The position numbers and the translations under genes are program-made. Shown here one piece after another: positions 15,342-60,962 of a stretch of 64,000 nucleotides of DNA. Origin of the DNA: Aristaeella lactis. Its GTDB lineage: Bacteria > Bacillota > Clostridia > Christensenellales > Aristaeellaceae. Location of the stretch: the NCBI RefSeq assembly GCF_018118585.1, contig NZ_CP069421.1:3038001-3102000 (forward strand), read 5' to 3'. The stretch's first letter is position 1, and the number at the start of each line of letters is the position of its first letter. Below the pieces are notes generated by a model. It was not told the DNA's origin, searched no databases, and saw nothing but the letters and a program-made list of their open reading frames with translations.

Positions 15342-15469
15342 GCGCAATTCGAGAATTGCGCAATGAATTATTTCAAAGCATCGGGAATGCTTTGAAATAT
15401 GAATTATCAACTTCGTCGATATGAATTATTGAACAGCAAGCTGTTCAATATGAATTATGCCCTCCGGGC
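15342..15469. repeat. Hairpin array A (ATGAATT spacers)
   Basis: It starts with a perfect 9-bp stem GCGCAATTC / GAATTGCGC. Four more stem-loops then follow, each led by ATGAATT: ATTTCAAAGCAT.., a decayed ATCAAC.., ATTGAACAG.., ATGCCC... Stems are unrelated in sequence; the spacer is constant. It abuts the clpB -35 box. Same family as at 21619, 45127, 48574 and 60813. Confidence 0.85.
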
Positions 15470-15534
15470 ATATTGCAGTAAGGCATTTCCCGACGCGGCC
15501 TGCGGATTTGCTCAAGATGACACCCTAGACAGGC

Positions 15535-20915: not shown

Positions 20916-21625
20916 CAGAGATGAATGTAGTTGACATTGTGATCCTGGGGATCCTGGGACTGAGCGTCCTGGTTGGACTGTACAGGGGGTTTATCTCCTC
21001 TGTGGCTTCCATGGGCGGATGCCTGCTGTCCCTGGGACTCAGTTTCTGGCTGAGTCCGAAACTGGCAGCAGCGATCCAGAGCAATCCGGATATCCTGAAG
21101 ACACTGGCATCCTATACCGATGCCGCGACAAAGCTGGGAGACCAGGCCCTGGCAAGCAGCAACGTTACCACGCTGACGGAAACCGGCATTTCCGAGATCA
21201 TTAACAAAGTCTCCCTGCCGGCACCGCTGAACACCCTGCTGCAGAACAACCTGACCAACCAGGTTTACGGCGCGGCCGCTGATGTGGGTACCTATGTTTC
21301 CCAGACGATTGTCGGAGCCATCCTGAATGTGATCTGCTTCATCGTGTGTTTCCTGGCTCTGCTGCTGGTGATCCACTTTGTGATCAATTTCCTGAAGGTT
21401 GTCTTTAAGTTCCCGGTGCTCAAGCAGCTGAATTCCATTGCCGGCGGTGCTTTCGGACTGATCCGCGGCGCGCTGCTGTGCTTCGTGGCGTTCGCCATGC
21501 TTCCGCTGATCCAGACCCTGCTGCCGGTGGAAAACATCAACCAGCTGGTGGAAGCCAGTACGCTGGCACCGCTGTTCAACAGCGGGAACCTGATCCTGGC
21601 GATTATGAATGGGAAGCTGTTCTGA
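20912..21625 (+). CDS. CvpA-family membrane protein
   Basis: 237 residues with four hydrophobic segments. The N-terminus (NVVDIVILGILGLSVLVGLYRGFISS) is typical of CvpA/colicin V production proteins, whose role in Gram-positives is unclear, possibly in envelope stress. Start: GTG 20912 overlaps the previous stop by 4 bases; ATG 20921 (MNVVDIV) is an alternative. Neither has ideal ribosome-site spacing. The stop lies inside a 13-bp inverted repeat that opens a hairpin array. Confidence 0.78.
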   Translation: MTEMNVVDIVILGILGLSVLVGLYRGFISSVASMGGCLLSLGLSFWLSPKLAAAIQSNPDILKTLASYTDAATKLGDQALASSNVTTLTETGISEIINKVSLPAPLNTLLQNNLTNQVYGAAADVGTYVSQTIVGAILNVICFIVCFLALLLVIHFVINFLKVVFKFPVLKQLNSIAGGAFGLIRGALLCFVAFAMLPLIQTLLPVENINQLVEASTLAPLFNSGNLILAIMNGKLF

Positions 21626-21759
21626 TTTTTCATGGAAAAATCAGAACAATGAAATATTTGCCTTCGGCAAATGTGAAATATTATGCGGCTTATGCCGCAT
21701 AATGTGAAATATCGCTTCGCGATGTGAAATATTGGCCTTCGGCCAATGTGATATTTACT
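21619..21759 (+). repeat. Hairpin array C (GTGAAAT spacers)
   Basis: It opens with GTTCTGATTTTTC-atg-GAAAAATCAGAAC (21619-21647), which contains the cvpA stop. Then stems ATTTGCC-ttc-GGCAAAT, ATTATGCGGC-ttat-GCCGCATAAT, ATCGC-ttc-GCGAT and ATTGGCC-ttc-GGCCAAT follow, separated by exact GTGAAAT. It closes with GTGATATTTACT. Confidence 0.92.
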
Positions 21760-44333: not shown

Positions 44334-45143
44334 ATGAGCTATATTTTTGTTGACCATCTCTGCAAGTCTTTTGTTGTCCGCAAAAAGCGGGAGAAGGGTG
44401 CTTTGCTGCGCCCAAAAGAGACAGTACACGCGCTGAATGACGTCTCCTTTGAGATTGAGAAAGGGGAACTGGTGGGCTATATCGGGCCGAATGGCGCGGG
44501 AAAGTCCACTACGGTCAAGATCCTTTCCGGGATCCTGGTGCCTGAAAGCGGTACGGTGACCGTGGGCGGGCGGGTTCCCTGGGAAAACCGGAAGGAGCAT
44601 GTGAGCCGCATCGGTGTTGTGTTCGGCCAGCGGACCCAGCTGTGGTGGGACGTGCCGCTGCTGGACAGCTATTCCCTGCTGAAGGACATCTACCGGGTGC
44701 CGGAGGAGAAGTACCGAAAGAGGCTGGACGAGCTGACCGGGGCACTGCAGCTGGGTGATCTGCTGCGGACGCCGCTGCGGCTGCTGAGTCTGGGTCAGCG
44801 GATGCGGGCGGAATTGTGCGGCAGCCTGCTGCACAGCCCGGAATTGTTGTACCTGGATGAACCGACCATTGGCCTGGACGCTGTGAGCAAACTGGCTCTG
44901 CGTGACTTTCTGCGGTGGGAAAACGCAGAAAAGGGAACCACAATTCTGCTGACAACGCATGATATGGAAGATATTGTGGCCCTGTGCTCCCGGGTGATGG
45001 TGCTGGGACATGGCAGCAAGCTGTATGACGGCGGGCTGCAGGAGCTTTTGTCTCAGTATGATACGACAAAGACGGTACAGGTGGAAGAACATCGGAATAT
45101 TGATCAGGTTATTGCGGCAATGTACAGGGATCTCGGGCTGTGA
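44334..45143 (+). CDS. ABC-2 type transporter ATP-binding protein
   Basis: 269 residues. Walker A GPNGAGKST, signature LSLGQRMRAELC, Walker B LLYLDEPTIGLD and switch His in LTTHDM. The long N-terminus (RKKREKGALLRPKETVHALNDVSF) and the pairing with two different ABC-2 permeases mark the DUF990/ABC2_membrane_6-linked subgroup, thought to act in export, sometimes of antibiotics or lipids. Its last codons form one arm of an 11-bp inverted repeat that begins a hairpin array. Confidence 0.92.
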   Translation: MSYIFVDHLCKSFVVRKKREKGALLRPKETVHALNDVSFEIEKGELVGYIGPNGAGKSTTVKILSGILVPESGTVTVGGRVPWENRKEHVSRIGVVFGQRTQLWWDVPLLDSYSLLKDIYRVPEEKYRKRLDELTGALQLGDLLRTPLRLLSLGQRMRAELCGSLLHSPELLYLDEPTIGLDAVSKLALRDFLRWENAEKGTTILLTTHDMEDIVALCSRVMVLGHGSKLYDGGLQELLSQYDTTKTVQVEEHRNIDQVIAAMYRDLGL

Positions 45144-45270
45144 AACCCGAGATCCCAATGAAATGTCTGACTTCGTCAGACGTGAAATATGGAACGGCGA
45201 TGCCGTTCCATGTGAAATATCGGCTTCGCCGATGTGAAATATTCGGCTGACGCCGAATGTGATAGTTACT
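45127..45270 (+). repeat. Hairpin array D (GTGAAAT spacers), inside an operon
   Basis: Opens with GGGATCTCGGG..CCCGAGATCCC, with the ATPase stop codon in the loop. Then GTCTGAC-ttc-GTCAGAC, ATGGAACGGC-gat-GCCGTTCCAT, ATCGGC-ttc-GCCGAT and ATTCGGC-tgac-GCCGAAT follow, each separated by GTGAAAT. Closes GTGATAGTTACT. Confidence 0.92.
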
Positions 45271-46205: not shown

Positions 46206-47006
46206 ATGAATACCCTTCGCTTGTACTGCCGGTCCATGGCAATGCTGATGAAAAGCCAGTTGCAGTATCCGCTTTCCTTCCTGATGCAGACGCTGGCCCA
46301 GCTGGTGATGGAAGGCGGCGAACTGATGGCAGTGATCCTGCTGATTGACCGGTTTGACCGGGTAAACCAGTGGGGACCCGGAGACCTGTATTTCTTTTTC
46401 GGCCTGATGTCAGTTTCTTTTTACCTGACGGAAATCTTCGGCAGGGGACTGACGGGCAATTTCCCGTCCATGGTGCGGAACGGACAGCTGGATACGCTGA
46501 TGCTGCGCCCCAGGGGCATCCTCACGCAGGTACTGTGCAGCGGGGCGGATCCCAGGCGGATTGCCTGCATTGCCGTAGGTACGGTGAGCCTGATCATGGG
46601 CAGCCGGATTTCCGGTATTACCTGGTCTCCTTTGAAAGCGCTGATGATGGCGGAATCCGTCTTTTTCAGCTTCTGGCTGATCCTGGGGCTGTTTATGGTA
46701 GAGGCTATTCTGACCATCCACAGTGTGAAGTCCATTGAACTGGCCAATACACTGACCTACGGCGGGCGCAGTGCCTGCGAGTATCCGAGCGATATCTATC
46801 CCAGGCCTCTTCGAGTGCTGTTTACGGTTATCGCGCCGTTCGCACTGGTGATGCATGTGCCGGCATCCATCATCCTGGACAAGCCGCTGTTCGGCTGGCC
46901 GGTATGGACCGGGCTTGTGACGCCCCTGGCGGGGGTGGTACTGTTCGGCGTGATGTATCTGCTGTTCAGGAAAGCGATGAAGTACTATCGGTCAACGGGA
47001 AACTGA
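46206..47006 (+). CDS. ABC-2 type permease, subunit 2
   Basis: 266 residues, six helices, related in layout to subunit 1 (LSFLMQTLAQLVMEGGELMAV; FFFGLMSVSFYLTEIFGRGL; LMLRPRG). ATG 46206 follows GGGAGG by 7 bases and lies 4 bases after the previous stop; the longer frame to 46185 overlaps that gene. Last gene of the exporter operon. Confidence 0.85.
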   Translation: MNTLRLYCRSMAMLMKSQLQYPLSFLMQTLAQLVMEGGELMAVILLIDRFDRVNQWGPGDLYFFFGLMSVSFYLTEIFGRGLTGNFPSMVRNGQLDTLMLRPRGILTQVLCSGADPRRIACIAVGTVSLIMGSRISGITWSPLKALMMAESVFFSFWLILGLFMVEAILTIHSVKSIELANTLTYGGRSACEYPSDIYPRPLRVLFTVIAPFALVMHVPASIILDKPLFGWPVWTGLVTPLAGVVLFGVMYLLFRKAMKYYRSTGN

Positions 47007-47064
47007 TCACAAAATACAGATGGTCCGACTGTGTTCTGTGAAATGAAATAACAGCCCTCAGGGC
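47007..47064 (+). repeat. Degenerate inverted repeat and one array-like unit
   Basis: TCACAAAATACAG..CTGTGTTCTGTGA (imperfect stem starting right after the stop codon), then AATGAAATA and a GCCC-tca-GGGC stem. This looks like a worn copy of the array family. Confidence 0.5.
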
Positions 47065-47811: not shown

Positions 47812-48573
47812 ATGAAGCTGAAGACGGCATTGTCACTGGCACTGAAAAAGACGCCAAGGACATCGGATGAGTTTGACAAGCTGCCGAAGCATGTAGCTAT
47901 CATTATGGACGGGAACGGCCGCTGGGCAAAGAAGCATAAGCTGAACGTGTCCAAGGGGCACCGGCAGGGAACAGAAACCCTGCGGGAGATCATCCGCCAT
48001 ACGGATGACCTGGGGATCGGCGCCCTGAGTCTTTATGCCTTCTCCACGGAAAACTGGAACCGTTCGGAAGAGGAAATAGCCGCGCTGATGCAGCTGATCC
48101 TGGATTTCTTTGCTTCCGAGATCGATGAGCTGGATGCCAAGAACGTACGGATCCTGATCCTGGGAGACAAGGGCGGCCTGCCGGAGAAACAGCGGGAAAC
48201 GCTGATCGAGGCGGAAAACCGGACAAAGAAGAATACAGGACTCCGGCTGAATATCGCCGTGAATTACGGCGGGCGCGCGGAACTGGTGCGGGCCGCGAGG
48301 CAGATCGCAACACTGGTCCGGAACGGGACGTTGCGGGAGGACGAGATCACCGAGCAGACGATCTCCGATTACCTGTATACCGCGGGACAGCCGGACGTGG
48401 ACCTGCTGATCCGGACCAGCGGGGAACAGCGGCTGAGCAATTTCATGCTGTACCAGAACGCGTACGCGGAATTCGTTTTCCCGACGGTTCTCTGGCCGGA
48501 CTTTACTGTGCATGACTATGATGAAGCGCTGGACGCGTTCGCGCACAGGGAAAGACGGTTCGGAGGACGATAA
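47812..48573 (+). CDS. uppS: Isoprenyl transferase (undecaprenyl diphosphate synthase)
   Basis: 253 residues. MDGNGRWAKKHKLNVSKGHRQG (catalytic Asp and substrate Arg), LYAFSTENWNRSEEE and DVDLLIRTSGEQRLSNFMLYQNAYAEFVF are cis-prenyltransferase signatures. Builds the undecaprenyl carrier for cell-wall synthesis from isopentenyl diphosphate, linking it to dxr and ispG downstream. Confidence 0.97.
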   Translation: MKLKTALSLALKKTPRTSDEFDKLPKHVAIIMDGNGRWAKKHKLNVSKGHRQGTETLREIIRHTDDLGIGALSLYAFSTENWNRSEEEIAALMQLILDFFASEIDELDAKNVRILILGDKGGLPEKQRETLIEAENRTKKNTGLRLNIAVNYGGRAELVRAARQIATLVRNGTLREDEITEQTISDYLYTAGQPDVDLLIRTSGEQRLSNFMLYQNAYAEFVFPTVLWPDFTVHDYDEALDAFAHRERRFGGR

Positions 48574-48719
48574 ATTCGAAAACAGAATCTCTGATTCTGC
48601 TTTCGAATCAATGAAATATCGCTTCGCGATGTGAAATATCCCGCTTCGCGGGATGTGAAATATTTGCCTTCGGCAAATGTGAAATGTTCGTCTGGCGACG
48701 AACATGATATATACATTAC
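48574..48719 (+). repeat. Hairpin array E (GTGAAAT spacers), between uppS and cdsA
   Basis: Opens with a 16-bp stem (one mismatch) starting just after the uppS stop (ATTCGAAAACAGAATC..). Then ATCGC-ttc-GCGAT, ATCCCGC-ttc-GCGGGAT, ATTTGCC-ttc-GGCAAAT and GTTCGTC-tggc-GACGAAC, separated by GTGAAAT. Closes with a variant ATGATATATACATTAC. Confidence 0.92.
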
Positions 48720-48735
48720 AGGAGAAGGACGAAGA

Positions 48736-49554
48736 ATGAAACAACGGTTTATTACGGGTTTGATGCTGACGGCTTTTCTGGCGATCAATCTGTGGCTGCC
48801 GAACTGGTGCATGGCCCTGGCAACACTGGTCTGCATCTGTTTCGCTGTATGGGAAGAATATCACGCGCTGTCCATAGCCGGACACCGGGTCGTGACCTGG
48901 CCTACCTGGGTGATCCTGGGCGTATCAATGCCGCTGACCTGGCTTTTCGGCGTGAAGGTGATCGTGCCGCTGCTGGCCCTGGCACTGTTTATTATGATCA
49001 CACAGATCCTGTTCCGGAAGGAGCCGGAGCTGACTGACCTGAGTATGAGCGCGCTGCCGCTGCTGACGGTGGCACTGCCCGGACTGAGCCTGGTGGCCCT
49101 GAGCCTGATCCCGGACCAGAAGGCCGTGGAAGTGGTGCTTCTTTGCCTGACCTTCGCGGTACCGCTGCTCGGTGACGTGATGGCGCTGTTTGTCGGCAGC
49201 GCGATCGGCGGACCGAAGTTCTGCCCGGCTGTCAGCCCGAAGAAGACGATCGCCGGCAGTATCGGCGGCCTGGCAGGCAGTGTAATTGCCGCAATGGCTG
49301 TATACGGACTGAGTGTTGCTATCTGCAACGCGTCGACCCTAGCTAAACTGCCTGTATGGTGGCATTACCTGGTGCTTGGTTTCACGGGCGGCATCGCCGG
49401 ACAGATCGGCGACCTGTTTGCCAGCCTGGTGAAGCGCCACAGCGGACTGAAGGACTTCTCCAACCTGTTCCCGGGTCACGGCGGAATGCTGGACCGGCTG
49501 GACAGCGTGCTGTTTATGGCAGTTTTAATGTATTGCTATTTAATGTTCAAATGA
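48736..49554 (+). CDS. cdsA: Phosphatidate cytidylyltransferase
   Basis: 272 residues with about eight helices. The C-terminal signature is present: SPKKTIAGSIGG..., then KRHSGLKDFSNLFPGHGGMLDRLDS. Makes CDP-diacylglycerol for phospholipids. Start at ATG 48736 (AGGAGAAGGA upstream); a longer frame to 48631 reads through hairpin array E. Its last codons form one arm of a 19-bp inverted repeat. Confidence 0.96.
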   Translation: MKQRFITGLMLTAFLAINLWLPNWCMALATLVCICFAVWEEYHALSIAGHRVVTWPTWVILGVSMPLTWLFGVKVIVPLLALALFIMITQILFRKEPELTDLSMSALPLLTVALPGLSLVALSLIPDQKAVEVVLLCLTFAVPLLGDVMALFVGSAIGGPKFCPAVSPKKTIAGSIGGLAGSVIAAMAVYGLSVAICNASTLAKLPVWWHYLVLGFTGGIAGQIGDLFASLVKRHSGLKDFSNLFPGHGGMLDRLDSVLFMAVLMYCYLMFK

Positions 49555-49607
49555 ACATTAAACAGCAATACTCAATGAACAATTAATAATGAACAATGAA
49601 CAATTAT
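49530..49607 (+). repeat. Gene-end inverted repeat plus AATGAAC repeats
   Basis: Left arm at 49530-49548 lies in the last codons of cdsA, the loop AAAT includes the first base of the stop, and the right arm is 49553-49571 (19 bp, one mismatch). AATGAACAATTAATAATG-type units follow directly. Confidence 0.85.
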
Positions 49608-56100: not shown

Positions 56101-57640
56101 CCAGTATCATGTCGGTGTGGACCTTCCGGACAAGGACTGCCCGGACTGCGGAAAGCCCCTGACCAAGGACGGATTCGATATCCCCTTCGAAGTTTTCCTA
56201 GGCTTTGAGGGAGACAAGGTACCTGATATCGACCTGAACTTCTCCGGTGAATACCAGAACCGGGCGCACCACTATGTGGAAGAACTGTTCGGACATGACC
56301 ACGTGTTCCGCGCGGGTACGATTTCCGGCCTGGCGGACAAAACAGCATATGGTTATGTGCTGAAATACCTGGAGGAACGCGGCATCCAGGCGGGCAACGC
56401 AGAAAAGGAACGGCTGGCCCTGACCTGTACAGGTGTCAAGCGGACCACCGGCCAGCACCCGGGCGGCATGGTTGTTGTGCCCCTGGAATATGAGATCTAT
56501 GACTTTACCGCGGTACAGCATCCGGCGGATGACCTGGAAAGCGACTTCACCACGACGCACTTCGACTTTAACAGCATGCACGACATCCTGGTGAAGCTGG
56601 ACTGCCTCGGTCATGATGACCCGACCATGCTGCATGAACTGGAGCTGCTGACGGGGATCAACTTCAAGGACGTTCCGCTGGACGATCAGGGGGTGCGGAG
56701 CCTGTTTGCTTCCCCCGAAGCGCTGGGCGTCACCACGGAGGACATCCTGTGCAACACCGGCACCTACGGCGTTCCGGAATTCGGTACAGGCTTTGTCCGG
56801 GGCATGCTGGAGGAAACCAAACCCCACACCATGGAGGAACTGCTGCGGATATCCGGTCTGAGCCATGGTACAGACGTGTGGCTGGGTAACGCCCAGGAGA
56901 TCATCGCGTCCGGTACGGCAACGCTGAGCGAATGCGTCTGCTGCCGCGACGATATCATGAACTACCTGATCGACAAGGGCGTGAAGCCGAAGCTGGCCTT
57001 CACCACGATGGAAAGCGTCCGTAAGGGCAAGGGCCTGAAGCCGGAAATGGAACAGGCCATGCTGGACCAGAACGTTCCGGACTGGTTTATGGACAGCTGT
57101 AAGAAGATCAAATACATGTTCCCGAAGGGACACGCGGTGGCCTACGTGACCATGAGCCTGCGCGTTGCCTGGTTCAAGCTGCATGAACCCCTGGCTTACT
57201 ATTGTGCCTATTTCACGGTCCGCGGCGACGGCTTTGATGCCTCCACAATGATCCTGCCGCCGGAAGATGCCCGGAAAAAGATCAAGGAAATCCGGAACAT
57301 GGATTCACCGACAGCCCGGGACAAGGATACGGCAACGTGCCTGGAACTGGTGCTGGAAATGAATATGCGCGGAATCCGGTTCCTGCCGGTGGATCTGTAC
57401 AAGAGCGATGTCAAGAAGTTCAGGATTGAAGACGGAAACATCCGCTGTCCGTTTATCAGCCTGCCGGGCCTGGGTGAAAGCGCCGCAATCCCGATCGCTG
57501 AAGCGCGGAAAGACGGACCATTTATCAGCATTGAAGACCTGCAGGTCCGCGGCAAAGTAGGTTCATCCGTAATTGAAATGCTGCGCACGCACGGCGCACT
57601 GCAGGGACTGAGCGAAACCAACCAGATCAGTATGTTCTGA
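53177..57640 (+). CDS. polC: DNA polymerase III alpha subunit, Gram-positive PolC type
   Basis: 1487 residues. N-terminal domain, OB fold (about 260-340), PHP domain VELHMHTNMSTMDALTPVEKL, inserted DEDDh proofreading exonuclease VVLDFESTGLNTGKARIIEIGAVKL (about 475-650), polymerase core with PDIDLNFSGEYQ catalytic region, and a zinc-binding CTHCHKGFF..CPDCGKPL insert. Replicative polymerase of low-GC Gram-positives. ATG 53177 follows TGGAG; GTG 53171 is two codons earlier. The stop codon sits inside a perfect 19-bp inverted repeat. Confidence 0.98.
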   Translation: MSYEDLMARIAREIPALAGKLSAPRVTYVKSLKKAYITFESSVLAGEREFLKLESILRDLFPGRPLAVRIISPGLKSAFLEDPSPYRQVLDDFLRRNYPMARGWIGKIDWRMEKNQLTETTDLPGGNREEGLLTLVFPDDISLQVMRKSDVAERLSVAIREIFAANLRVEMTVEGTREERLRRMIEERQNVVLTVTAEEMAERYGTGIGGEKETAPKKPAGERKPAAKTEGAKAKPAAPAAPEPPVGKPIMGRSIADKPVEIKELTGESGLVVVQGEVFKLEQKELKGGEMLLVTFAVTDYTSSVLCKIFFRYRARYMKKEEAEATPITDEERAAVKEKVDRIKEGMCVRVRGECLYDNYARDLSISVRDMVETKKEEREDTAEEKRVELHMHTNMSTMDALTPVEKLISRAAKWGHPAVAVTDHGVLQSFPAAFRAAKGKIKLIPGCEGYLIDEKPIVEDPDERPYDGPIVVLDFESTGLNTGKARIIEIGAVKLQDGTVIDSLEQLVDPGQPVGPKITEITGINDAMLEGQPKAEEALPKLLEFIGDLPIAAHNAHFDASLLKAELKRLGLTFDHPVMDTLSYARKLYPDLKSFRLAALCKHLGVSLKNAHRAVHDATATALCLKRMFEDTRAAHPGVQSEKELNAALTSGAIGESWHIILLAKNRTGLVNLNRLVSIGHLDYFKRVPHMPRHMIQKYREGLILGSACEAGELFRAVLNREDHERLKQIASFYDYLEVQPIGNNAFLLREGQVSSEEELRDLNREIIKLGEELNIPVVATGDVHFLDPKDAIGRAIIQAGMKYDDADNQPPLYFKTTNEMLEEFSYLGPEKAKEIVIDNPRKIAEQVEEIKLFPKHPKGEDTFQPFWDDAEDMIQQMTWDTAEELYGSPLPEIVEARLKKELKSIVGYGYCTLYSIAQKLVSRSLQDGYLVGSRGSVGSSLVARMCGITEVNALPPHYRCTHCHKGFFDVDKSQYHVGVDLPDKDCPDCGKPLTKDGFDIPFEVFLGFEGDKVPDIDLNFSGEYQNRAHHYVEELFGHDHVFRAGTISGLADKTAYGYVLKYLEERGIQAGNAEKERLALTCTGVKRTTGQHPGGMVVVPLEYEIYDFTAVQHPADDLESDFTTTHFDFNSMHDILVKLDCLGHDDPTMLHELELLTGINFKDVPLDDQGVRSLFASPEALGVTTEDILCNTGTYGVPEFGTGFVRGMLEETKPHTMEELLRISGLSHGTDVWLGNAQEIIASGTATLSECVCCRDDIMNYLIDKGVKPKLAFTTMESVRKGKGLKPEMEQAMLDQNVPDWFMDSCKKIKYMFPKGHAVAYVTMSLRVAWFKLHEPLAYYCAYFTVRGDGFDASTMILPPEDARKKIKEIRNMDSPTARDKDTATCLELVLEMNMRGIRFLPVDLYKSDVKKFRIEDGNIRCPFISLPGLGESAAIPIAEARKDGPFISIEDLQVRGKVGSSVIEMLRTHGALQGLSETNQISMF

Positions 57641-57705
57641 ACCAACGGTTCAGAACATACTGATCAATTCATAATTCACAATTCATAATTCTTAATGAAT
57701 ATGAA
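57625..57705 (+). repeat. Perfect 19-bp inverted repeat over the polC stop, plus ATTCATA repeats
   Basis: GATCAGTATGTTCTGAACC (57625-57643, includes the stop) and its exact complement at 57647-57665, loop AAC. AATTCATAATTCACAATTC units follow. Confidence 0.92.
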
Positions 57706-59890: not shown

Positions 59891-60810
59891 AGCTGGACGA
59901 GATTCAGAAGCGGCTGCTTCGCGAGGTGGCAGACCTGCATGAAATACCGGAAGGCGCGTATAATATCCGCTCCAACAGCGCTTCCGCGGGCCGGCAGTCA
60001 ACTGCCAATATTGAGATCACTTCCAAGGAAGACGTCAGCGGCCTGGAAATCCGGATCAAACCCGGAACGAAAAACGAGAGCGTGCATATTCCCGTGGTGA
60101 TGACCCAGAGCGGACTGAAGGAAGTGGTCTATAACGACTTCTTCATCGGTGAAGGCGCGGACGTGGTGATCATCGCGGGCTGCGGCATTGACAACTGCGG
60201 CAACCAGGATTCCCAGCATGACGGTATTCACCGCTTCTTTGTCGGGAAGAACGCCCGGATCCGGTATGTGGAAAAGCATTACGGTTCCGGAGACGGCAGC
60301 GGGAAGCGGATCCTGAATCCGGGTACGGAAGTATACATGGAAGAGGGAAGCTACGCCGAGATGGAAATGGTCCAGATCAAAGGCGTGGATGATACGGTGC
60401 GCACAACGACGGCGGAACTGGCAGCCGGATCCAAACTGGTGGTCCGGGAACGGCTGATGACCCACGGGGAACAGAGGGCGATCAGCAACTATGTGGTGAA
60501 CCTGAACGGGGAAGGTGCCAGCGCGGACGTGGTTTCCCGCTCGGTAGCCCGGGATCATTCCTTCCAGAAGTTTGACGCGAAGATCGTCGGCAATGCTGCC
60601 TGCCACGGGCATACGGAATGCGATTCCATCATAATGGATGAGGGCCGGATCCTGGCAGTACCTGCCCTGGAGGCCAACAACGTGGACGCAGAGCTGGTGC
60701 ATGAGGCGGCCATTGGCAAGATTGCCGGGGAACAGCTGATCAAGCTGATGAGCCTGGGACTGACCGCAGCGGAAGCCGAGGAACAGATTATTAACGGATT
60801 CCTGCAGTGA
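59884..60810 (+). CDS. SufB/SufD-family iron-sulfur scaffold protein (short form)
   Basis: 308 residues, shorter than SufB or SufD (about 420-480). The beta-helix core is evident: GCGIDNCGNQDSQHDG, EMEMVQIKGVDDT, SRSVARDHSFQKFDAKIVGN, CHGHTECDSIIMDEG and AVPALEANNVDAELVHEAAIGKI. Start at ATG 59884 overlaps the sufC stop by 7 bases. Short SufC-SufB/D pairs are thought to be minimal ancestral assembly systems (SMS type) in anaerobes. Confidence 0.9.
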   Translation: MLKLDEIQKRLLREVADLHEIPEGAYNIRSNSASAGRQSTANIEITSKEDVSGLEIRIKPGTKNESVHIPVVMTQSGLKEVVYNDFFIGEGADVVIIAGCGIDNCGNQDSQHDGIHRFFVGKNARIRYVEKHYGSGDGSGKRILNPGTEVYMEEGSYAEMEMVQIKGVDDTVRTTTAELAAGSKLVVRERLMTHGEQRAISNYVVNLNGEGASADVVSRSVARDHSFQKFDAKIVGNAACHGHTECDSIIMDEGRILAVPALEANNVDAELVHEAAIGKIAGEQLIKLMSLGLTAAEAEEQIINGFLQ

Positions 60811-60812
60811 AG

Positions 60813-60962
60813 TTAATCCCTGTTCTGCATAAGCAGAACAGGGATTAAATGAATTATTTTCCTTCGGAAAATATGAATTATCGGGCGTACCGCCCGATGT
60901 GAAATATCTGCCTTTGGCAGATGTGAATTATTCGCCGCAAAGCGGCGAATGTGATAGTTACT
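60813..60962 (+). repeat. Hairpin array F (ATGAATT/GTGAAAT spacers)
   Basis: Opens with a perfect 16-bp stem TTAATCCCTGTTCTGC-ataa-GCAGAACAGGGATTAA. Then ATTTTCC-ttc-GGAAAAT, ATCGGGC..GCCCGAT, ATCTGCC-ttt-GGCAGAT and ATTCGCCGC-aaa-GCGGCGAAT follow with ATGAATT, GTGAAAT or GTGAATT between. Closes GTGATAGTTACT. Confidence 0.92.

Follow-up and report, generated by a model that had tools for sequence, protein, structure and literature searches.

Gene-end hairpin arrays of the Gut-1 class in Aristaeella lactis and their possible birth by fold-back copying of DNA

The window analyzed here is a stretch of 64,000 nucleotides from the genome of Aristaeella lactis. It contains five loci in which a 7-nt linker recurs between hairpins that are mutually unrelated and almost perfectly paired. 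These arrays are best read as repeat elements of the Gut-1 class (RF01706) that lie mostly at the 3′ ends of genes, in the sense orientation, and whose hairpins were probably born by fold-back template switching of DNA and shuffled via their linkers. A probability of roughly 55% is given to the two parts of this reading jointly. During DNA synthesis, the new strand would fold back on a short inverted repeat and copy its own preceding bases, which form one arm and possibly the last codons of a gene. The copying would yield a perfect second arm, after which synthesis would resume. The 7-nt linkers could then act as short homologies through which units are lost, gained, or exchanged. Selection on RNA structure may act in addition and would account for both the stem grammar and the sense position. 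Fold-back template switching is preferred because it produces a perfect second arm in one event, because a short seed suffices, and because there is a published precedent.

The original prediction was that the five loci share one design of hairpins and linkers, and all five read as described. They are listed below together with related sites in the window. The gene ends come from a home-made codon model.

15342–15472, + strand: ATGAATT-type array with a short leading hairpin; below the RF01706 cut-off; located between two divergent genes according to the home-made gene calls and thus an exception to the gene-end rule.
21618–21759, + strand: array of four hairpins at the end of the gene ending at 21625, with the end GTGATATTTACT; the leading hairpin overlaps the stop codon of this gene; RF01706 score 58.7 bits.
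45127–45270, + strand: array A, four hairpins with the 3′ end GTGATAGTTACT; the left arm of the leading hairpin (45127–45156) consists of the last codons of the gene ending at 45143, and the stop codon lies in the loop; RF01706 score 50.2 bits.
47007–47060, + strand: probable decayed array start that follows the gene ending at 47006 and consists of an imperfect hairpin with a single GTGAAAT downstream of it, at 47038; the matching site carries hairpins with linkers in three relatives (G321, G297, and G097).
48574–48719, + strand: array B, four hairpins with GTGAAAT linkers and an ATGATAT end; the leading hairpin (48574–48608) lies directly 3′ of the stop codon of the gene ending at 48573, and the first linker is ATGAAAT at 48611; RF01706 score 55.3 bits.
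49530–49571, + strand: palindrome spanning the stop codon of the gene ending at 49554, with 19-bp arms and one mismatch; followed by AATGAAC-type heptamer repeats and no hairpin array.
57625–57665, + strand: palindrome spanning the stop codon of the gene ending at 57640, with perfect 19-bp arms; followed by AATTCAT-type heptamer repeats and no hairpin array.
60813–60962, + strand: mixed ATGAATT/GTGAAAT array just 3′ of the gene ending at 60810, with a leading hairpin of 16-bp arms and the end GTGATAGTTACT; below the RF01706 cut-off.

The design is not confined to these loci. The window contains 19 copies of GTGAAAT where 9.1 would be expected, and none of 100 shuffles reached this number. In the whole genome (3.45 Mb), two exact linker-insert-linker patterns gave 64 + 53 matches in the GTGAAAT form and 12 + 43 in the ATGAATT form, and the same patterns read backwards gave none. 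A sample of 864 kb was parsed, comprising the window and 40 stretches of 20 kb, of which 37 were taken around hits and three were hit-free controls. The parser found 96 chains, 72 of them with two or more units, and none of the 96 in the three controls. Between the linkers, there were 244 hairpins (199 distinct), of which 228 had perfect Watson–Crick arms and a loop of at most 6 nt; since the parser itself demands pairing, with G-U accepted, this rate is selected accordingly. A laxer tally that required only 60% paired positions retained 245 hairpins among 311 linker-to-linker segments. The claim that nearly all stems are perfectly paired stood, and arrays with paired stems were found elsewhere in this genome and in its relatives, the point on which the original prediction had staked itself.

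A full array begins with an optional leading hairpin, continues with a first linker (often ATGAAAT or ATGAATT) and commonly three linker-closed hairpins, and closes with a last hairpin. In many arrays, the leading hairpin is longer than the others, with arms of up to about 20 bp, and in many the 3′ end is similar to GTGATAGTTACT. Two linkers, GTGAAAT and ATGAATT, had been named at first; both are found, and ATGATAT joins them as a third main type. The stems had also been described as unrelated between units. This holds in so far as 199 of the 244 hairpins are distinct, but they do not vary freely, the commonest form being RTYNGNC-loop-GN′CN′RAY with loops TTC or TGC. Copying alone would not account for this grammar or for the linker, which hints at a further constraint and counts against the fold-back reading.

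It had been stated that the arrays belong to no named family, which was wrong for three of the five loci. These reach the RF01706 gathering score of 50 bits (58.7, 55.3, and 50.2), and the two window arrays with ATGAATT linkers (15342 and 60813) score below the cut-off. In the window, each match spans three consecutive hairpins of a longer array. Across the genome, at least 57 matches have an E-value of 0.001 or better and at least 22 exceed the cut-off, with 150 of 361 candidates scored. Gut-1 is a candidate ncRNA of 2010 that was catalogued without a known function; in the accessible part of the source paper, it is reported from the human gut only and from environmental sequences only, and its authors viewed it as most likely an ncRNA unaffiliated with mRNAs (PMC2864571). 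Compared with Gut-1 as presented there, the elements described here are pieces of longer arrays that mostly follow stop codons (PMC2864571). Judged by position alone, they are not unaffiliated with mRNAs, as 53 of 70 arrays follow a same-strand gene, and they do show covarying stems in 27 units preselected by the parser. What is new relative to the Gut-1 catalogue is the array anatomy and the mode of evolution. A search of the open-licence literature found no description of gene-end arrays of this kind.

The relation to gene ends is close. The 70 arrays counted are those with at least two units and gene neighbors on both sides. In 48 of the 53 that follow a same-strand gene, the first linker lies −4 to 107 nt from the stop codon, and in nine arrays of this genome (G000; e.g., L110, L135, L139, and L140) the upstream frame terminates at the TGA contained in the first linker. 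The remaining 17 of the 70, including the array at 15342, do not follow the rule under the simple gene calls. Pairs of arrays on opposite strands also occur within a few hundred bases (1185784/1186140 and 1249117/1249340), the first of each pair being among the seventeen exceptions. Hairpins that overlap the stop codon with a score of at least 9 were found in 18 of 58 array genes and in 24 of 600 others (p = 5e-10). Where the leading hairpin spans the stop codon, the left arm is coding and the right arm is its reverse complement. Many of the 24 cases without an array are followed by AT-rich heptamer repeats, as judged by eye. At a score of at least 10 and without a T-run, such hairpins occupy 32 of 637 gene ends in G000, 15 of 211 in G297, 12 of 202 in G097, 14 of 206 in G323, and 1 of 8 in G321, against 0 of 134 in array-poor members of the genus; the rates of the array-rich genomes are biased upward because the stretches were chosen around arrays. 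A Gut-1-type linker follows these hairpins in 14, 3, 3, 3, and 1 cases, respectively, and a heptamer tract in 9, 8, 8, 6, and 0.

A role in termination, which had been proposed, is not supported, as the stems precede linkers and carry no T-runs. Separate terminator-like sites were found between the stop codon and the array in 4 of 48 cases and within 260 nt after the array in 5 of 48; genes without an array had such sites in 91 of 592 cases.

Evidence on the origin of the hairpins comes from comparisons between species, in which one genome represents each species. Where comparison is possible, most right arms match the gene end of the species that carries them, and outgroups have none. At array A, the coding ends of G000 and G321 differ, and the right arm fits its own end in each. 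At another gene end (L212 at 4356), the arrays of G297 and G323 are wholly different, and both leading hairpins fit that end, the one in G323 with one mismatch. At the gene ending at 49554, four of 18 relatives (G323, G297, G321, and G097) have palindromes with arms of 18–20 bp, in two registers, each fitting the coding end of its own genome, and 13 of 18 have no palindrome. Both at 49554 and at array A (G000 and G321), a reverse-complement copy thus lies beside its source and is missing from the outgroups, as template switching would leave it. In G321 and G097, the inner 8 bp at 49554 were already present within the coding end, and from the sequence only the outer part reads as new. In G315 (L178), the palindrome at this gene end is mismatched because its left arm is of the G000 type and its right arm, together with the downstream repeat, is of the G323 type. 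It looks as if interspecies recombination might have broken near the hairpin. At array A of G297 and G097 (L177 and L179), the stem extends across the linker and pairs ATGAAAT with its reverse complement ATTTCAT; a hunt for other hairpins grown through a linker returned only these two.

The original prediction left open whether the stems are kept paired by selection or created by inverted copying. Copying is favored at gene ends. For the inner hairpins, slow compensatory change is a poorer match than copying and shuffling, since units turn over and G-U pairs are missing; selection is possible there too. We infer that template switching is the mechanism for the inner hairpins as well; the birth of an inner hairpin was not seen in the species comparisons. 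The clearest palindrome across species, the one at 49554, precedes heptamer repeats and not a Gut-1 array, which counts against the fold-back reading.

A comparison of the same intergenic sites between close relatives had been suggested as a check, and between sister species it revealed gain, loss, and replacement of single units as well as of entire arrays. Array B has a counterpart in one of 18 relatives, where it is decayed; at this site, G320 was seen in part, with a 4-kb insertion recognized by its two ends. Array A has a counterpart in three of 10 relatives. Of 52 arrays in G297, 33 had an orthologous place in the G097 stretches and 38 in those of G323; four and five of these, respectively, were dropped because their flanks were below 85% identity. 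Arrays were unchanged or differed by point changes only at 11 of 29 loci (G297 vs. G097) and at 16 of 33 (G297 vs. G323). The remaining scored loci had gained or lost units, replaced units, no shared unit, or no array found. The classes were assigned automatically: at least three of the "changed" rows are by eye only a mutated linker or a change in loop length (L206 at 4421, L209 at 5892, and L214 at 6357), and some "absent" rows stem from short alignments. At one locus (L208 at 9032), the array is of the GTGAAAT type in G297 and of the ATGATAT type in G323, and the two have only the last hairpin and the 3′ end in common.

Within matched stems, 12 one-sided and two two-sided changes were counted among 454 pairs between G297 and G097, and 10 one-sided and three two-sided changes among 562 pairs between G297 and G323. 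A first, loose count for G297 and G097 (15 two-sided and 11 one-sided) had mixed in replaced units, and the stricter count is less favorable to concerted change. Since one-sided changes dominate, in-place correction of a stem is rare at this evolutionary distance. This dominance also weighs against the fold-back reading, as the arms are not corrected all the time. The stems seem to arrive perfect, decay slowly, and get replaced.

The leading alternative, which is considerably less probable and can be held only tentatively, is that the arrays are functional 3′-UTR RNAs (the Gut-1 RNA) with stems under selection for pairing and with linkers that serve as single-stranded contact sites for a protein or RNA. 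Such a function would agree with the sense position after genes, the conserved linker and loop grammar, the RF01706 match, and the low fold energy of array B: for positions 48570–48730 it is −58.1 kcal/mol, whereas shuffled versions average −33.7 (z = −6.96), and none of 200 shuffles folded as well. It would also agree with strong covariation. In 27 distinct aligned units with 17-nt inserts, preselected by a parser that demands pairing and accepts G-U, 186 of 189 stem cells are Watson–Crick pairs and none is G-U, and 48 of the 189 have changed on both sides. Covariation modelling, proposed beforehand as a check, gave these preselected units a score of 0.649 against 0.153 in shuffles, and 0 of 500 shuffles reached it. 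When partner columns were slid by 1 to 3 positions, pairing fell to 29–41%. Against an RNA function stand the loss or replacement of whole units and arrays between sisters and the patchy presence in the genus.

The missing G-U pairs speak against RNA less clearly. In 544 distinct hairpins with 3961 pairs, there are 14 G-T and 40 A-C oppositions, so that G-T is even the rarer of the two. A control of 219 terminators had 53 G-T and 48 A-C; the contrast between arrays and terminators has a p-value of 0.0005, with shared ancestry not removed. As terminators also lack an excess of G-T over A-C, the comparison is indecisive for RNA versus DNA, and the argument that the stems have no G-T and therefore are not RNA is weakened. 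An A-C on the array strand is a G-T on the opposite strand. Because A-C outnumbers G-T in the arrays, the folded strand might even be the opposite one. Single-pair differences within G000 gave a transition-to-transversion ratio of 52:56, which is near even, an indirect measure. If a folded RNA has an effect, this putative effect seems most likely to be a mild one on the 3′ part of the transcript.

It is unlikely that the arrays are a mobile DNA element moved by an enzyme that reads single-stranded hairpins (cf. REP/RAYT and IS200/IS605) with the linker as its recognition sequence. A mobile element would account for the dozens of copies, for presence and absence at the same locus in relatives, and for the patchy spread over the order. 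Within the genus, the arrays are concentrated in one group: among 45 genomes, six have 27 to 183 pattern matches, nine have one to three, and 30 have none. The six are G000 (183), G323 (108), G321 (104), G297 (99), G097 (93), and G315 (27, in a 70% complete genome). RF01706 was detected in 74 of 297 genomes of the order and in five of 398 of a phylum sample, the own genome included in both; stricter filters were applied in the order, so that weak hits can be missed. A scan of species genomes returned 74 stretches, 47 of them with well-paired inserts; 45 of these 47 come from records named Clostridia, Clostridiales, Eubacteriales, Christensenella, or Ruminococcus, and the other two from one Bacillota and, weakly, one Puniceicoccales. 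Arrays that adjoin terminators in some other families of the order also favor mobility. In G136, G219, and G012 (L243–L250 and L254–L256), paired facing arrays with a long outer stem were seen by eye, so bigger elements exist, and one array of such a pair adjoins an intrinsic terminator with the tail CAACTAAAT or CAACGAAAT.

The two kinds of enzyme compared, Y1 transposases and reverse transcriptases, do not follow the arrays, however. Y1 (RAYT) transposases are present in 28 of the 45 genus genomes and show no link with the arrays: the array-bearing G315 has none, and G179 has eight and no array match. They were therefore rejected as partners. A reverse transcriptase was likewise rejected as the maker, as PF00078 was absent from five of the six array-rich genomes, with four hits in G315 and further hits in several array-poor members. 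The stems differ between copies, and the right arm of the leading hairpin fits its target, neither of which suits a mobile element. A phage origin was also discarded: 53 viral stretches match the linker pattern, yet none has two hairpins in a row. When viral matches were examined, 10 of 54 passed the pairing test, six of them being one recurring sequence, and L312 has a single well-paired insert.

A dedicated cellular process in these Clostridia that writes the arrays, by folding the 3′ end of a gene, copying it in reverse, and adding hairpins spaced by a 7-nt word, is a similarly improbable idea. If it were true, structure and not sequence would be inherited and spread.

Neutral drift alone, in which heptamer-type repeats slip and the hairpins are functionless by-products, is very improbable: period 7 (41 windows) and period 12 (10) are the only strong periodicities among periods 4 to 12, and heptamer tracts also follow gene-end palindromes, but slippage makes no inverted copies, and the ordered architecture and sense position exceed what drift would be expected to give. 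Degenerate heptamer repeats are common in these genomes (AATGAAC, AATTCAT, ACTTAAA, ACTCTTC, and GGTAGGA types), and the Gut-1 linker has the same length of 7 nt as the heptamer unit. The 864 kb parsed in G000 contain 82 heptamer tracts, and the sisters G297, G097, and G323 have 39 or 40 each in some 260 kb; in 56 kb of array-poor relatives there is one. At the gene end at 49554, the heptamer tract of G321 and G097 does share the 3′ end of the arrays. Such sharing is not general, because it was found in only 1 of 82, 1 of 39, 0 of 40, and 0 of 39 tracts, a result that goes against the fold-back reading.

The arrays resemble several known systems in part. REP/BIME elements occur as many palindromic copies between genes, often at gene ends, with sequence-conserved stems and RAYT transposases. 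The arrays share the many palindromic intergenic copies and the frequent position at gene ends. They differ in that most of their hairpins are distinct (199 of 244), so that the palindrome is not conserved, and in that they do not track the Y1 transposase over the 45 genus genomes. Cyanobacterial STRR sequences are degenerate 7-nt repeats between genes, and in this they are similar to the arrays; to our knowledge, they have no hairpins between the heptamers, as the arrays do. Mitochondrial double-hairpin elements are structurally divergent hairpin repeats scattered through the intergenic regions of organelle DNA. In sponge mitochondrial DNA, repetitive hairpin-forming elements are intergenic, structurally divergent, and scattered (PMC2800124). 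These are elements of organelle DNA, and the available text describes for them neither a constant 7-nt linker nor a copy of a gene end (PMC2800124). Template switching is a published maker of perfect hairpins, described for microRNA and rRNA genes (PMC8794818). Like the hairpins described there, those at gene ends would be one-step, perfect reverse-complement copies beside their source that acquire mismatches later (PMC8794818). In contrast to the cases in that text, the hairpins here are recurrent, lie at gene ends, and are tied to arrays in one bacterial group (PMC8794818).

When stems stay perfectly paired although their sequence changes, this usually counts as proof that RNA structure is under selection, and the catalogue lists Gut-1 as a structured RNA. 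Should fold-back copying of DNA write the pairing in these arrays, covariation by itself would not prove an RNA function. If the fold-back reading is true, the arrays would offer dozens of natural replicates of the birth, exchange, and decay of hairpins between close species, and the template-switch origin of stems would be directly testable in a bacterium. Beside several of the arrays (e.g., L106 and L108 in G000) there is also another intergenic repeat, which is similar to TCCTTCGACTGCGCTCCCTTCGTACCGCTTGCTCAGGATGACA.
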